From the NCBI GenBank assembly GCA_003152315.1, contig PLZV01000031.1:1-64000 (forward strand): a DNA stretch of 64,000 nt. Direction: 5' to 3'. Source of the DNA: Verrucomicrobiota bacterium. Its GTDB lineage: Bacteria; Verrucomicrobiota; Verrucomicrobiia; Palsa-1439. Shown in pieces: positions 247-57,476 of the stretch. Below the pieces are notes generated by a model that did not search any database, had not been told where the DNA came from, and saw only the letters and a list, made by a program, of their open reading frames with translations. Both the position numbers and the translations under genes were made by a program. How positions within the stretch are numbered: position 1 is the stretch's first letter; each line of letters starts with the position of its first letter.

Positions 247-343
247 AAACGAACCGGATTCATTTTTTTTAAGGTCGCGTCGCAACTCGCGTGTTCAGTG
301 GTGGTTAGCCTCAAAATCGCCTCCAAACCAATCCGGTTCGTTT
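247..343. repeat. MITE-like element, copy 1 (97 bp)
   Basis: Bounded by perfect 14-bp terminal inverted repeats AAACGAACCGGATT / AATCCGGTTCGTTT. The outer flank CGCAGAAA.ACATGTTT is also shared with the copies at 22692-22788 (97 bp) and 54364-54462 (99 bp). The interior is AT-richer and diverged, and no gene is carried. Confidence 0.8.
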
Positions 344-444
344 CGCAGAAATACATGTTTTTGCGGACTCTTCTTCCCCGAAGAAACAGCCCCCCCGTCC
401 ACAACGTCCATGCCCGTCCACCTCGTCCACCCCTTCTCGAACGT

Positions 445-472: not shown

Positions 473-708
473 CGAAGTGGCTCTTCCCTCTCCCCTTGGG
501 GGAGCCGAGTCGGCGAGAGGCCACGAACTCCGCACCCGGAGTTCGGAGCAAAGGGTTCGGGTGAGGGGTGTTCGCGACCACTCCGGAGCCCCCATTTCCA
601 TCCCAAAAGAGGCGAATTTTCACTCAATCCCCCTCAAAAACCCCCTCCGAGTCGAACGAGTCGCGCCGTAGCGGCCTCGCGAAGGCGTACCGGTGGGTTC
701 GTTTCCGA

Positions 709-807
709 AAACGAATCCACCGTTTTCCAGCACAATTTTATCTTGTAACCCATTGTATCGCTGATTGATAAATGCTGTTTTCCGAGACAAAATCGGTGGG
801 TTCGTTT
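709..807. repeat. MITE-like element, variant copy (99 bp)
   Basis: Terminal inverted repeats AAACGAATCCACC / GGTGGGTTCGTTT (13 bp, one mismatch). It differs from the 247-343 family in the inner half of the terminus (CCCACC instead of CCGGATT) but has the same overall length and the same ACATGTTTT flank. The sister copy is 23019-23116. A second inverted copy of the terminus abuts the left end (691-721), forming a hairpin. Confidence 0.7.
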
Positions 808-1008
808 GGTAAAAACACATGTTTTAGAATTGTCTCCTTCCTCTCGCATGTTGTGCGACGGTCTCCCGACCCTGGCTTCTTGTAGCCACGGCGTGGCGCC
901 TGGCCTTCGTAGCCTTGGCGAAGGAGGAAGCGTTCATTTTCTCAGTATACCACTATCGGAATACGATGTCCAGAGACAAATCATCGTAACTTCTTCAATG
1001 GTCCCCCG

Positions 1009-1057
1009 CTGTAGCCGCAGGCTTCAGCCTGCGCTCCTGCCCCGAAAGCTTTCGGGG
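1009..1057. repeat. two adjacent palindromic repeats
   Basis: CTGTAGCCGCAGGCTTCAGC.. contains the palindrome CGCAGGCT/AGCCTGCG, which recurs at 9385-9410. It is followed by CCCCGAAAGCTTTCGGGG, a perfect 18-bp palindrome related to the CCCCGAA..TTCGGGG units at 1880, 23308 and 55483. Confidence 0.7.
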
Positions 1058-1072
1058 TGAATCGCCGCCTCG

Positions 1073-1140
1073 CCTCCGAATTGTAGGGCGCCATGCCTGT
1101 CGTCTAGGTATCGCGCCGCGTCGTTCATAAAAAATATCGC
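1073..1140. repeat. dispersed spacer repeat, GTAGGGC..GATGCC type
   Basis: A unit of about 65 bp starting CCTCCGAATTGTAGGGC and ending in AATATCGC. Similar copies lie at 1635-1700 and 22881-22950. No protein is encoded. Confidence 0.7.
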
Positions 1141-2042: not shown

Positions 2043-3191
2043 ATGGCAGAGAAATACGAGATCACCAGGACATCACAACGATCAGCAGTCGTGTCCGACA
2101 CAGTCCTGTGGGAAACGGATACGACGCGTCTGACTCTGCGACCAGAGATTGTCAGGAATCCGCACAACGCCGAGGCCAGTGTGAAAGTCGCGTTCGTTCA
2201 TCAACGTAAGTCCCCAAAAGGAACGTGGGAGGATGTACCGACGAAACCATTCAGCGCGCTCAAAGCCGGGGAGGAAGTAAAGTTGCCGTTGCACTCAGAA
2301 TCGACGCTAAAATTGTTTCACGAACTCCGAAATCTGTATGCCCTCGCGACGCAGGGAAAGATCGGGCGTGGAACCACGAACCTTGTCGTTGGCCCAGAGA
2401 AGGAAATGGTTGAAGTGGGCGAGAGCCGCGCGAGGGTCATCAAGCTCCTCCTCGAGAAAGGATACTCGGACGACATTTGGAAAGAACTTATCGCTTCCGA
2501 CCCCGACCTTGCGACGAGGCTCTCGGACGCCCGTATCCACGCGAAGCGTCAGGAGGCGCTCGAAGAATTCCGCATCAACATGGGCAGGAGACAGGGCGAG
2601 CCTTGGTGGCAGGATTTTTTTGAGAGGAACACTTGGATTTTCGGATATGGCCTTAAATATCAGATTCTGAAGCCCATTCAAGCCCAGCCCTATTATGGCG
2701 GCACAAACGTTACCGGGACTGGCGCCGAAAGGGGCGACTTCCTGCAGCACACCGAGGCTGATTCGAAGTTCACAGTTCTCGTTGATATTAAGAAGCCGGA
2801 AACATTGTTACTTACCGGAAAACTCTACAGGAATGGGGCGTGGGTGCTGGGAGAAGATTTGATCGGCGGCGTTTCCCAGCTTCAGGCGAATTGTCGTCGG
2901 TGGGAAGTACAAGGTTCGCGTACCGACGAGAATCGCGAGACCCTAGCCGAGCAGGGAATCCTAACGGTCCAGCCAAAAGGAGTTTTGGTGATAGGGCACA
3001 CCAAACAACTCACCCAGACCGGTCAGAAAATATCCTTTGAGCTTTTCCGGCGCAACGTCATCAACCCTGAAATCGTGACCTTCGACGAACTGTACGAGCG
3101 CGCGAAGTACATCGTCGAACGAACTGCGCAGAACGCCGAAGAGTCAGCGCAAGCTATCCCAGTTAGCGACGAAGACAACGTGCCCTTCTGA
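2043..3191 (+). CDS. sduA: Shedu-type anti-phage nuclease SduA (DUF4263)
   Basis: A 382-residue protein with a DUF4263-like C-terminal half. The block WWQDFFERNTWIFGYGLKY (about residues 187-205) leads into GDFLQ (about 231-235) and VLVDIKKP (about 244-251). This gives the D...(D/E)-x-K arrangement of the PD-(D/E)XK nuclease fold. A helical ELYERAKYIVERT segment lies near the end, as in Shedu proteins. DUF4263 nucleases are the single effector of the Shedu phage-defence system. The N-terminal ~170 residues carry a variable domain, probably the sensor or regulatory part. The ATG at 2043 is preceded by GGAAG at suitable spacing. A small membrane protein gene follows 7 bp later. Family assignment is by motif reading; activity against phage is inference. 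Confidence 0.78.
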   Translation: MAEKYEITRTSQRSAVVSDTVLWETDTTRLTLRPEIVRNPHNAEASVKVAFVHQRKSPKGTWEDVPTKPFSALKAGEEVKLPLHSESTLKLFHELRNLYALATQGKIGRGTTNLVVGPEKEMVEVGESRARVIKLLLEKGYSDDIWKELIASDPDLATRLSDARIHAKRQEALEEFRINMGRRQGEPWWQDFFERNTWIFGYGLKYQILKPIQAQPYYGGTNVTGTGAERGDFLQHTEADSKFTVLVDIKKPETLLLTGKLYRNGAWVLGEDLIGGVSQLQANCRRWEVQGSRTDENRETLAEQGILTVQPKGVLVIGHTKQLTQTGQKISFELFRRNVINPEIVTFDELYERAKYIVERTAQNAEESAQAIPVSDEDNVPF

Positions 3192-22691: not shown

Positions 22692-22788
22692 AAACGAACC
22701 GGATTCATTTTTTTCGCAGTCACGTTGTAACTCCCTTCCGCATCGATGGTTCCGTAGAAAATAGACCCAAAACCAATCCGGTTCGTTT
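22692..22788. repeat. MITE-like element, copy 2 (97 bp)
   Basis: Same 14-bp terminal inverted repeats and exactly the same length as 247-343, with the shared outer flank CGCAGAAACGCATGTTTTTG. Confidence 0.8.
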
Positions 22789-22880
22789 CGCAGAAACGCA
22801 TGTTTTTGGGCTCCCCCTCATCCGCGATAGCCGGTCGTTGGTAGGGACGGCTGGCCCAGCCGTCCGCTGTCGATCCGTCG

Positions 22881-22950
22881 CCTCCGAATTGTAGGGCACG
22901 ATGCCCGTCGTTTAAATATCGCGCCGCGCCGATCATAAAATATCGCCCTT
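22881..22950. repeat. dispersed spacer repeat, GTAGGGC..GATGCC type
   Basis: Third copy of the unit at 1073-1140 and 1635-1700. Confidence 0.65.
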
Positions 22951-23018
22951 CCGAGCTGCACACAGCAGCGAGTCGCGCCGAAGCCTCGGCGAAGGCGGAC
23001 CGATGGGTTCGTTTTCGA

Positions 23019-23116
23019 AAACGAACCCACCTGCAAATCCCCTCTGCAAACGAGACAAGTTCATTTACACAAGGATGTTCCACAGAATTCCGACTCCAAA
23101 ATCGGTGGGTTCGTTT
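23019..23116. repeat. MITE-like element, variant copy (98 bp)
   Basis: Perfect 13-bp terminal inverted repeats AAACGAACCCACC / GGTGGGTTCGTTT; sister of 709-807. As there, an additional inverted terminus abuts the left end (23003-23031). Confidence 0.75.
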
Positions 23117-23291
23117 CGCAAAAACATATAGGGGCCCCCTTTGTGGGTAATGGCGCGGGCAGCCTGGCCTTCGTAGCGTCCTCGCGAAGTAGGCTCCCGC
23201 CCGCGTTTTCCGTCCCCGAGTTGAACAGGCGTCCCACCTGTACCCCGTTCCCGTCCCCTGGGAAGTTGCGTGTCCGCCCTCCACCCCTGAT

Positions 23292-28651: not shown

Positions 28652-28684
28652 AAAAAAGCCGACTCTGAATCCAGGAGTCGGCTT
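28652..28684 (-). terminator. riboswitch-controlled intrinsic terminator
   Basis: On the minus strand, AAGCCGACTC / GAGTCGGCTT form a perfect 10-bp stem with a 9-base loop, followed by TTTTTA. It lies directly downstream of the TPP aptamer and 20 bp before the thiC start, so it is the expression platform. Confidence 0.85.
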
Positions 28685-28692
28685 CACCATCT

Positions 28693-28777
28693 GTTTCCCT
28701 ACGCCAGCATTACCTGGGTCAGGTTCTATGGGTCTCCCGCCTCGTGCGGAATCTCAGCCCCGAAAGGCTCCCCAAAC
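28693..28777 (-). promoter_or_regulatory. TPP riboswitch aptamer (THI element)
   Basis: On the minus strand the conserved pieces appear in order: GGGGAGCC..GGGCTGAGAT, AGACCC, GAACCTGACC, GGTAATGCTGGCGTAGGGA. GTTT/AAAC pair as P1 at the ends. The bound vitamin would let the terminator at 28652-28684 form and stop thiC transcription. Confidence 0.95.
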
Positions 28778-28796
28778 GAATCTGCCTATGAAATTG

Positions 28797-38549: not shown

Positions 38550-38692
38550 GGCCACCAATCTGACCCGGCGCTGCCAACCGTGTAAGATCTGTGACGTTGA
38601 CCAACGAGGGCCAAACGTCTCGCGTGACGGGAGCTAAAAACGAAATACCCCGCCGTAATGCCGTTTAAACGATATCTTTTGAACCCCTAACT

Positions 38693-38878
38693 AATAGGGG
38701 GCTCTGTCGGCTGCTTCGTGCTTCCAATGAAGGCATGCAGTCCACAACCGAACTCCGAGCTCCGTCAATGACGGTATTGGCTCAAAGAATCCTCGTTTAT
38801 CACGAACATGGCAGGGTATTTCGAAAAACTTGCTTTAGCAAAGAACAATGGCGACCCCTGTCGCCCACAGGAACCCTA
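38693..38878 (-). ncRNA. ssrS: 6S RNA
   Basis: Read on the minus strand, the ~185-nt spacer has the landmark pieces of 6S RNA in the right order. ATGTTCGTG is near the centre, then TGAGCCAATA, a CGTCATTGACG hairpin, GCTC, GGTTG, the block ACTGCATGC and, after a short hairpin, GAAGC. E. coli 6S has AUGUUCG, UGAGCCGAUA, a hairpin, GCUC, GGUUGG, GAGCAUGC and GAAGC. The ends pair as a closing stem (AGGG..CTGT with ACAG..CCCT). A promoter-like TTGAAA-16-TTACTA lies at 38899-38904 and 38877-38882. 6S RNA sequesters the housekeeping RNA polymerase holoenzyme. Upstream of rarA and the 5-FTHF cyclo-ligase gene, as expected from known synteny. Confidence 0.8.
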
Positions 38879-53459: not shown

Positions 53460-53572
53460 CCTGACATTCGCCATGGCGACCTTCCCGACGCATGTCGGGA
53501 CGCGCGACATCATCTGTGCCTTCGACCATCTAAAAAGATGGTCGGGACGGCGGGATTTGAACCCGCGACCTC
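53460..53572. repeat. 112-bp repeat A+B, right copy
   Basis: Part A 53460-53508 and part B 53518-53572, where part B is the 3' half of the true tRNA-Pro gene. The spacing from A to B is 9 bp, and 8 bp in the left copy. The pair encloses the GIY-YIG gene. Confidence 0.85.
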
Positions 53573-53615
53573 TTGGTCCCGAACCAAGCGCGCTACCAAA
53601 CTGCGCTACGTCCCG
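53542..53615 (-). tRNA. tRNA-Pro(CGG)
   Basis: Reading the minus strand: acceptor CGGGACG / CGTCCCG, D arm GCGC..GCGC, anticodon stem CTTGG / CCAAG with loop TTCGGGA (anticodon CGG), T arm GCGGG TTCAAAT CCCGC. Discriminator A is followed by an encoded CCA (53539-53541). A GACCATCT / AGATGGTC hairpin with TTTT loop follows the 3' end. Confidence 0.95.
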
Positions 53616-54363: not shown

Positions 54364-54462
54364 AAACGAACCGGATTGAAATTTCCACTCTCTTGCTACG
54401 CATCCAATTCCAACTCAATATGTTATCCCCTGTTTTCATGCCAAAACCAATCCGGTTCGTTT
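54364..54462. repeat. MITE-like element, copy 3 (99 bp)
   Basis: Terminal inverted repeats AAACGAACCGGATT / AATCCGGTTCGTTT, identical to copies 247-343 and 22692-22788. Confidence 0.8.
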
Positions 54463-54662
54463 CGCAGAAACACATGTTTGCGCGGCGCTTCTCCGCCGAT
54501 AGTGGCGCGGGCGTCCCGCCGTGTCCTTTCGACCCGGTGACGCGTGACAACGTCTCCCCCAATACCACCTCGACAAACCCCTCCCTGTAGCCGCGGCGTG
54601 CCGCCATTCGGCGGCATCCACGGTTCCGAGACCGGGACTCCGTCGCCGTGTCGCCTCCGCCT

Positions 54663-54722
54663 TGGAGGGACGCGCTCTGTCGCGTTCGCTGATTGAGCTG
54701 TAGCGGCGGTCTATGACCGCCG
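54663..54722. repeat. GGAGGGACGCGC repeat and CGGCGGTC palindrome side by side
   Basis: TTGGAGGGACGCGCTCTGTC.. at 54663-54689 and the palindrome CGGCGGTC-tat-GACCGCCG at 54704-54722. The same two parts occur near 25-105 and around 8537-8750. Confidence 0.75.
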
Positions 54723-55622: not shown

Positions 55623-57476
55623 TTAAGTCTGTTCTCCGAGGATCGTCTTTGCCTCTCTCAAATCAATCTTCGCCTTGTGCCCGTGCTTCTCCATCAGATT
55701 GAGGAGATTTGCGCCGTTCAGCAGGACAAGGGGTTTACCTCTTGCGAATTCGTAAGAATCGGGACCATAGTCTGATGTCGTTACAAGTATTCCCTTGCTT
55801 GCACCTTCGTTGAGTACTGTCCCATATAAGTCTCGAACGGCAGAGACACCGACGGTGTTTGTGTATCGCTTGGCTTGAATCACCGTCTTACCGCCACGAA
55901 TCACATCGGGGTCGAAGGCGATAGCATCAACGCCATGATCCCGGCTGGCTTGCGTTATTTTGACCTCGCCTCCGGCTTGTTTGAATTCCTGCTCGAATAA
56001 CTCTCTTATCAAATGTTCAAAATCTTCCCAGTCCATCGCCGCCAAGTTGACCCCTTCGTTTAGTTTGTTGACAACTTCGCGGGGCGCGATAAAGCGTTTA
56101 TCTTCTCGACTGATGGCGAGAACGGGCGCGATGGGCGTTAAGCTGTGAAGCTGTGAACTGCCGACACCCTTCAAATTCTTGAAACATGTCTTAGGATCGA
56201 CATTCTCTAGATTTCGCGCGCGAAACTCCTCTTTCTTGACTAGTATCGAAAGAACACATGCGTTTGCTTCTTTGCCTGTGGCTTTGTCGATTGATTTGAC
56301 CCAGCCATTGAAGGAGATGGCGTCGAGGGCCTTGACGACGTCGGCTTTGAATAACTCGCGCAACGAGCGAAGACAAATCTGGTAAAGGGTATCGTCGTAA
56401 AGGCTGTTCAAGTCGTTTTCCGAAAGGAATACCTCGGTAAAAGCATCCTTTGACTTGACGTATTTCACCTCCTTCAATTGGGGCAAGTGCTCCGGAGCGG
56501 GGAGTGCGTATTCGACGATGAGGATCTTAGTTCCAGGGCTGTATTCGAGATCAAAATCTTGTGGGAAGTTGTCTGGATAGTCCGAGTTCGCAAGAACCAT
56601 TTCGCAGTAGTCCTCGACACCCCCTGGTTGACGGGCTTCGTAACTGGCCCTACGCTTGTCAATGGTGCCATTCTTCTTTGCGAGCTTCCGCCGATATTCG
56701 TCCGCTTCGCGATTCCATCGCTCTGCCTCGGCATTTTTTTTAGTATAGCGGAGATCGTTTTCAGCTTTCACCGAATCAGCCATATTGACCCAGTCATTGT
56801 GGTCGGAACTGAAAAGATCATTTGCTAGTCGCCGGTTTTCATTGGTGACCTCCTCGGTAACTTGTTGCCAAGTGGGGTAATCCATGTTGTAAGACTCTCG
56901 CGCAGCCTGCTTGTTCTTCCCCATCGTATATTTAGCAAGCCTGCCAAAAGACCTCAAAATCCGCACCAAAAAGGTCCTAAATACCAATGCGGCTGCAGCT
57001 GGCCTGGGGCAGTACTTTGCGTCACTTGCCTGGGGTTCTCGGGGATAGTCTAAGTAGAGTGGTTGCTGCGGTTCTGGTTTAGAAAATAGCTCGTGTTTCT
57101 TGAGCTTTTCCCAATCAATGACAGAACGCTTTTTGAGTGTCACACGGAGGATGCTCTTTACCGCTTCCACTTCCTTCTGGGCCGCGCTTGTCCGCTCCTC
57201 AGCGTCCTCAAATTTCTCCTCAATTTCTCGCTGTGCGGCTTCTTTTTTTCGTTGTGCGGCTTCTTTGCTGCGCTCTAACAGTTGCCTCGCCCTTTGTTTT
57301 TCCTGAAGCACATTCTCCTTCTGACGTCGGTCGGCGAGAATGTCCTCGTGCTTCTTTTCCCATTCAAGCGCTTGTGCACGCGCCTTCGCCTGTACCAAGT
57401 CATAGTCAGTACCGGAGATGACACGGAATTTACCCAAGCCCTGATGGCTGACCTGAACTGTGTAGCGATATGCCAT
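55623..57476 (-). CDS. Mrr-type restriction endonuclease with N-terminal coiled coil
   Basis: A 617-residue protein. Residues ~50-130 are a long charged coiled coil (ERSKEAAQRKKEAAQREIEE). A middle region follows without recognised domains. The C-terminal ~130 residues form an Mrr-like PD-(D/E)XK nuclease: DFEHLIRELFEQEF, HGVDAIAF (catalytic Asp) and VIQAKRY (the Q-x-K variant), then ILVTTSDYGPDSYEFA. Mrr-like enzymes act on modified or foreign DNA. Preceded by a TATAAT promoter at 57503-57529. A likely anti-phage or restriction gene; the partner is unknown. Confidence 0.85.
   Translation of the reverse strand: MAYRYTVQVSHQGLGKFRVISGTDYDLVQAKARAQALEWEKKHEDILADRRQKENVLQEKQRARQLLERSKEAAQRKKEAAQREIEEKFEDAEERTSAAQKEVEAVKSILRVTLKKRSVIDWEKLKKHELFSKPEPQQPLYLDYPREPQASDAKYCPRPAAAALVFRTFLVRILRSFGRLAKYTMGKNKQAARESYNMDYPTWQQVTEEVTNENRRLANDLFSSDHNDWVNMADSVKAENDLRYTKKNAEAERWNREADEYRRKLAKKNGTIDKRRASYEARQPGGVEDYCEMVLANSDYPDNFPQDFDLEYSPGTKILIVEYALPAPEHLPQLKEVKYVKSKDAFTEVFLSENDLNSLYDDTLYQICLRSLRELFKADVVKALDAISFNGWVKSIDKATGKEANACVLSILVKKEEFRARNLENVDPKTCFKNLKGVGSSQLHSLTPIAPVLAISREDKRFIAPREVVNKLNEGVNLAAMDWEDFEHLIRELFEQEFKQAGGEVKITQASRDHGVDAIAFDPDVIRGGKTVIQAKRYTNTVGVSAVRDLYGTVLNEGASKGILVTTSDYGPDSYEFARGKPLVLLNGANLLNLMEKHGHKAKIDLREAKTILGEQT

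Follow-up and report, generated by a model that had tools for sequence, protein, structure and literature searches.

Small dispersed elements of constant length and drifting interior, found only in one genus among the Verrucomicrobiota genomes sampled

Bacterial MITEs are represented by RUP in pneumococcus, Correia/NEMIS in Neisseria, and ERIC/RU-1 and RU-3 in enterobacteria (PMC2229807, PMC10969869). REPINs are built from inverted conserved ends around a spacer of fixed length and show compensatory changes (PMC3116915). Small MITEs and the homing of insertion sequences on REPs are already known (PMC10969869, PMC2229807, PMC1525189). ISPsy8, ISPpu9, ISPpu10 and ISRm22 all target REPs; the REP-targeting families named are IS3, IS110, IS4, IS256 and IS5, and for IS1016 the table of that paper gives only 2 of 17 (PMC1525189). 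Like the MITEs listed, which are about 100-160 bp long, AT-rich, intergenic, high in copy number and without a transposase, and which carry terminal inverted repeats (PMC2229807, PMC10969869), the elements described here combine all of these features. On balance, and with modest confidence, we read them as a MITE-like family of short non-coding DNA dispersed through the genome and restricted to one genus.

Copies, termini and interiors

We analysed the window, a stretch of 64,000 nucleotides (positions 1-64000 of contig C56) from the source genome, G000. Five copies picked out by an earlier note were found at exactly the positions it gave, with lengths of 97, 99, 97, 98 and 99 bp (Table 1). 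In the window, 16 occurrences of the terminus AAACGAAYC were counted where 1.3 would be expected. Across the source genome (4.89 Mb, 62 contigs), the pattern AAACGAAYC-N65..95-GRTTCGTTT matched 133 paired copies and a reversed control pattern none; with a wider terminus pattern there were 138-139, giving a tally of about 133-139 depending on the pattern. For exact paired termini in the fetched sequence, counted up to a separation of less than 200 bp, the distance was 97, 98 and 99 bp in 44, 30 and 23 cases (97 in sum), and any other distance was seen at most once. Had copies across the genome lacked a fixed length or conserved ends, the same note would have had them be simple hairpin repeats; both features were found, so that this reading was not borne out. 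At 96-100 bp with ends of 13-14 bp, the elements lie well within the bounds set for MITEs (under 500 bp, terminal inverted repeats of about 4-30 bp). They are gene-free, with no transposase gene inside, dispersed, AT-rich and present in high copy number, and their sites are intergenic with no strict rule on gene orientation, as judged with a crude gene caller.

The termini are near-perfect inverted repeats of 13-14 bp whose outer 9 bp are nearly invariant. Only 30 stray termini were counted, against 143 within elements and 40 in a third copy of the terminus (R'), although the search demands near-matches over the outer 9 bp and under-counts decayed copies. Two subfamilies had been proposed; the termini fall into at least six classes, CACC, CATTT, AATT, GGATT, GAATT and GATT, plus GCCATTT. 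A common outer flank had also been proposed, and a conserved flank, CGCAGAAACRCATG, does exist; it is confined to the right side. The copies are therefore directional, and the 60 most similar copy pairs are all in the same orientation. Two types, both present in G000 and in the congener G002, can be told apart. T2 comprises the classes GGATT, GAATT, GATT and GCCATTT and has the left flank tttCnngCC and the right flank CGCAGAAACRCATGTTTTTGCG, which could form a small hairpin. T1 comprises CACC, CATTT and AATT, typically with the right flank CGCAGAAACGTATA, and carries R' in inverted orientation 4 bp to the left, as do the window copies at 709 and 23019; R' and the left terminus together form a near-perfect palindrome. 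In the congener G001 the 25 copies fetched measure 99-100 bp, have a related right flank, GGCAGAATTACATATATGG, and nearly all bear a direct third terminus copy at a 20-bp offset, so that the orientation of the third copy, inverted or direct, depends on the species. A shorter relative of about 62-75 bp was also seen, which keeps the right flank CGCAG and has termini of the form AAATTCACACCCCC / ACTGGGGGATTCGTTT and no full left repeat.

Table 1. Positions of elements, flanks, third terminus copies (R'), transposon inserts and shorter relatives
Feature	Position	Strand	Details
T2 element	247..343	+	97 bp; termini AAACGAACCGGATT / AATCCGGTTCGTTT
Right flank of 247 copy, conserved	344..365	+	CGCAGAAATACATGTTTTTGCG; potential small hairpin
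R', inverted	692..704	+	GGTGGGTTCGTTT; 4 bp left of 709 copy
T1 element	709..807	+	99 bp; CACC class; one variant base in left terminus (AAACGAATCCACC)
Right flank of 709 copy, variant	808..826	+	GGTAAAAACACATGTTTTA
T2 element	22692..22788	+	97 bp; GGATT class
Right flank of 22692 copy, conserved	22789..22810	+	CGCAGAAACGCATGTTTTTGGG
R', inverted	23002..23014	+	GATGGGTTCGTTT; 4 bp left of 23019 copy
T1 element	23019..23116	+	98 bp; CACC class
Right flank of 23019 copy, T1-type	23117..23134	+	CGCAAAAACATATAGGGG
T2 element	54364..54462	+	99 bp; GGATT class
Right flank of 54364 copy, conserved	54463..54479	+	CGCAGAAACACATGTTT
IS1595-family insert	L071:7786-9989		
IS1595-family insert	L118:5265-6524		
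IS1595-family insert	L215/L041 (G000:C23:58926-61583)		
Shorter relative, copies	L054:10058-10155, L055:15459, L057:16856, L059:7231, L106:15908		

Positions 10-14 of the termini are variable, yet 99 of 131 copies have ends that agree at all five, compared with 21 in shuffles. The end base pairs exchange singly (C:G to G:C, A:T to T:A, T:A to A:T), and one compensatory swap, C:G to T:A, separates two orthologous copies (L062:7310 and L093:3646). Such compensatory variation, one case of it between orthologues, would be expected if the elements were transcribed and their paired ends formed an mRNA stem governing stability or termination, and the small hairpin after T2 copies fits this too. We nevertheless regard an RNA element as very improbable. 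Interior mirror positions showed no pairing, the interior RNA fold was no better than column-shuffled controls, and Rfam gave no match at the elements, which leaves neither conserved or covarying interior helices nor a known structured RNA. The elements also show no link with the ends of genes or with their orientation, and T2 copies are without a conserved upstream promoter region.

The interior has a GC content of 0.42 against 0.576 for the window. Between most copies its identity is at chance (median 0.52, compared with 0.50 for shuffled sequence), while subfamilies share a terminus class and a length and reach interior identities of up to 90%, which indicates past copying. Despite the drift, certain landmarks hold their spacing, among them AA at 38-39 and the mirror position. 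Constant length combined with strongly drifting interiors is unlike ordinary decaying MITEs and implies either selection on spacing or the copying of length-fixed masters. Half-elements when pooled give a clear profile, in which A/T tracts, with A and T interchangeable, stand at about 17-18, 28-30 and 38-39, some 10-11 bp apart. Across 16 half-profiles the phases of the tracts at 10.5 bp are clustered (R = 0.81), although in single half-profiles the phasing is mostly weak and not significant, and the profiles share ancestry. The tracts are suggestive of DNA bending or wrapping.

These features bear on the main rival to our reading, namely that the elements are cis-acting sites of the host. A nucleoid protein or another DNA-binding protein of the host would bind or wrap the termini and A/T tracts, and selection rather than mobility would keep the copies in place. 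Spacing that stays constant while sequence drifts, the clustered phases of interchangeable tracts, the scarcity of decayed single termini and a third terminus copy whose orientation depends on the species would all suit binding sites. Set against this are the weakness of the phasing in most single half-profiles and the lack of any fixed relation of the elements to genes. Taken with the comparisons between species below, this leads us to consider a host site unlikely, if worth weighing.

Range and history of the family

In a class-wide sample of 93 relatives, terminus matches were confined to the source genome and its congener G002. With a degenerate terminus the congener G001 was also positive, the degenerate form being needed because G001 copies end in AAACGAAGCC. 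Among 11 genomes of the order, only the genus was positive, with 138, 54 and 27 copies in its three species; neither the remaining 8 genomes of this order nor the other class genomes sampled yielded any copy, the search being blind to genera whose termini differ strongly. Among the genomes sampled, the family is found only in this genus.

Two apparent exceptions were set aside. A T1 element lies at L162:5400-5626 on a contig filed under Hyphomicrobiales (a palsa MAG), beside a perfect palindrome and a run of NN. Given that a palindromic duplication and an NN gap adjoin the element, the contig is probably a chimeric scaffold rather than a sign of spread to other taxa; otherwise it would represent horizontal transfer. 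Five terminus matches in IMG/VR had unrelated interiors and flanks and are probably due to chance rather than viral carriage.

At all 8 loci comparable between G000 and G002, those with orthologous sequence on both sides, the same gap is occupied in both species by elements that are oriented alike. Selection of these stretches for the presence of elements inflates the figure of 8/8, but not the agreement in place within about 20 kb. True orthologues, with interior identities of 0.68-0.77, account for three of the eight, and one is intermediate (0.62). At the other four the interior identity is 0.42-0.57, the chance level, and the terminus class differs, the resident core belonging to another subfamily; at one of the loci (L083/L088) all three terminus copies differ together. 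Two loci are occupied in G001 as well. Some T1 copies have an R' from another class than their matched left and right termini, which looks like replacement of the core with R' retained. Read from these sequences, the history of the family points to copying, vertical inheritance and in-place replacement.

Element positions conserved between species are what a host binding site would predict, whereas the kinship within subfamilies and the swapping of subfamilies at orthologous loci require copying, and the elements are absent from other genera of the order. Returning to the MITE-like reading, core replacement could proceed through gene conversion between copies or through excision and re-entry; either would do.

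At one locus (locus C) G000 has one extra T1 copy, with adjoining repeats. No clean case of a paralogous empty site was found, and solo right ends were rejected as empty sites since R' and R are direct repeats, and a deletion between the two accounts for such ends equally well. The element at 54364 borders a 3.2-kb stretch absent from G002. Inside this stretch, which starts beside the element, lies a gene for an Mrr-type restriction endonuclease (window 55623-57476, minus strand). The window further contains a Shedu SduA defence protein with both Pfam domains (2043-3191, plus strand), a 6S RNA (38643-38820, minus strand), a TPP riboswitch (28679-28784, minus strand) and a tRNA gene (53542-53615, minus strand).

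Possible mobilisation and IS1595-family insertions

The earlier note took the elements to be non-autonomous and mobilised by a transposase. Their architecture, copy number, intergenic sites, fixed ends and small AT-rich interior agree with this. Of the two further marks that it proposed looking for, direct repeats of at least 5 bp at the two ends, as target-site duplications, were present in none of 158 copies, and no autonomous transposon with the same ends was found in about 2.1 Mb of the three genomes.

Long spans between termini were listed in the source genome for the GGATT, GATT and GAATT classes, and among these there were at least two pairs, of 2.3 and 2.7 kb (contigs C48 and C23). Both, and a 1.36-kb span in G001 (L118), were considered as autonomous partners and rejected, because each contains an IS1595-family transposon with its own ends; such inserts were the only transposons among the termini listed. 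IS1016 belongs to the same IS1595 group. The inserts encode DDE_Tnp_IS1595 proteins, with a zinc ribbon and DUF3800 where tested, the Pfam domains being identified on the L071 and L118 proteins; together with the inverted repeats of the inserts and their 8-bp duplications (AAATAAAT, CAAAATTC, GAAAAATT), these are the marks of the IS1595 family. A DUF3800 passenger gene is present in two of the three. Removal of the insert and one duplication leaves exactly 99 bp in all three cases, and the insertion point is each time after position 88 or 89 of the element, inside the right end. Only three IS1595 copies were found in G000. Two of them lie inside elements, which make up about 0.3% of the genome in total, and the end of the third seems to fall about 33 bp away from one. 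Among the other IS1595 copies in G001, one has a palindrome, not an element, as its target. From their sequences, the elements look like landing pads, or a preferred target, for IS1595-family transposons, whose inserts show an apparent target specificity. No IS1595 copies were found in G002, which makes IS1595 dispensable for keeping the family.

We also weighed whether the elements are REPIN-like single-stranded hairpins that owe their movement to a Y1/HUH transposase (RAYT). As described for REPINs (PMC3116915), the elements have two inverted conserved ends, a constant-length spacer and compensatory changes, a palindrome stands at the left end of T1 copies, and Y1 transposases occur in all three species. 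The elements, however, bear no GTAG or similar head and have no linked RAYT gene: their termini do not flank Y1 loci, the short RAYT-like genes inspected in G000 sit among ordinary GTAG-headed REPs, and the same Y1 type is also found in genera without elements. Since the interior forms no hairpin either, we think this origin decidedly improbable. The intergenic DNA is rich in other GTAG-headed, REP-like palindromic repeats (for instance at window 1010-1100, 22840-23000 and 54480-54690, and at L049:1553-1640), and short RAYT-like genes lie among such REPs at L049 and L058.

For a MITE-like family, we propose that a putative trans-acting transposase or recombinase, possibly lost, would bind both termini. 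Constant spacing, along with A/T tracts at roughly helical intervals, might let this enzyme or a nucleoid protein draw the ends towards each other, and copying would give rise to subfamilies. In two respects the family departs from standard MITEs: its length is strict although its interiors are at chance level, and it shows in-place replacement. A more far-reaching possibility, to which we give little credence, is that the sites are fixed 'sockets' in which cassettes of 97-99 bp are exchanged in place, core and matched ends being swapped and the outer flank kept, under selection for DNA shape and spacing over sequence, and with a precise landing pad for IS1595-family transposons.

Comparison with known systems

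If our reading is right, some 200 natural variants in three species make it possible to tell what has to be kept (end matching, exact spacing, A/T placement) from what is free to drift, which would give a direct handle on the recognition of miniature elements. In-place replacement at conserved sites would be a form of repeat turnover distinct from ordinary insertion and decay, and entry of IS1595 at a fixed point would extend the range of IS families known for homing on small dispersed repeats.

Compared with RUP, Correia and ERIC, the elements have no TA termini and no target-site duplication, and on the right their termini are not the outer edge of the conserved unit. They also differ in their third terminus copy, in having several matched terminus classes in one genome, and in interiors that drift at strictly constant length. 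With REPINs and BIMEs and their RAYTs they share inverted conserved ends, a fixed spacer and compensatory changes, whereas the GTAG head, RAYT linkage and interior hairpin are absent. As in the REP-targeting systems, an insertion sequence repeatedly enters a small dispersed palindromic repeat (PMC1525189), although here it is an IS1595-family transposon rather than ISPsy8, ISPpu9, ISPpu10 or ISRm22. What is new is the strict length that a family specific to one genus keeps through extreme drift, the in-place replacement of its subfamilies, the two arrangements of the third terminus, and the insertion of IS1595 at a single fixed point.
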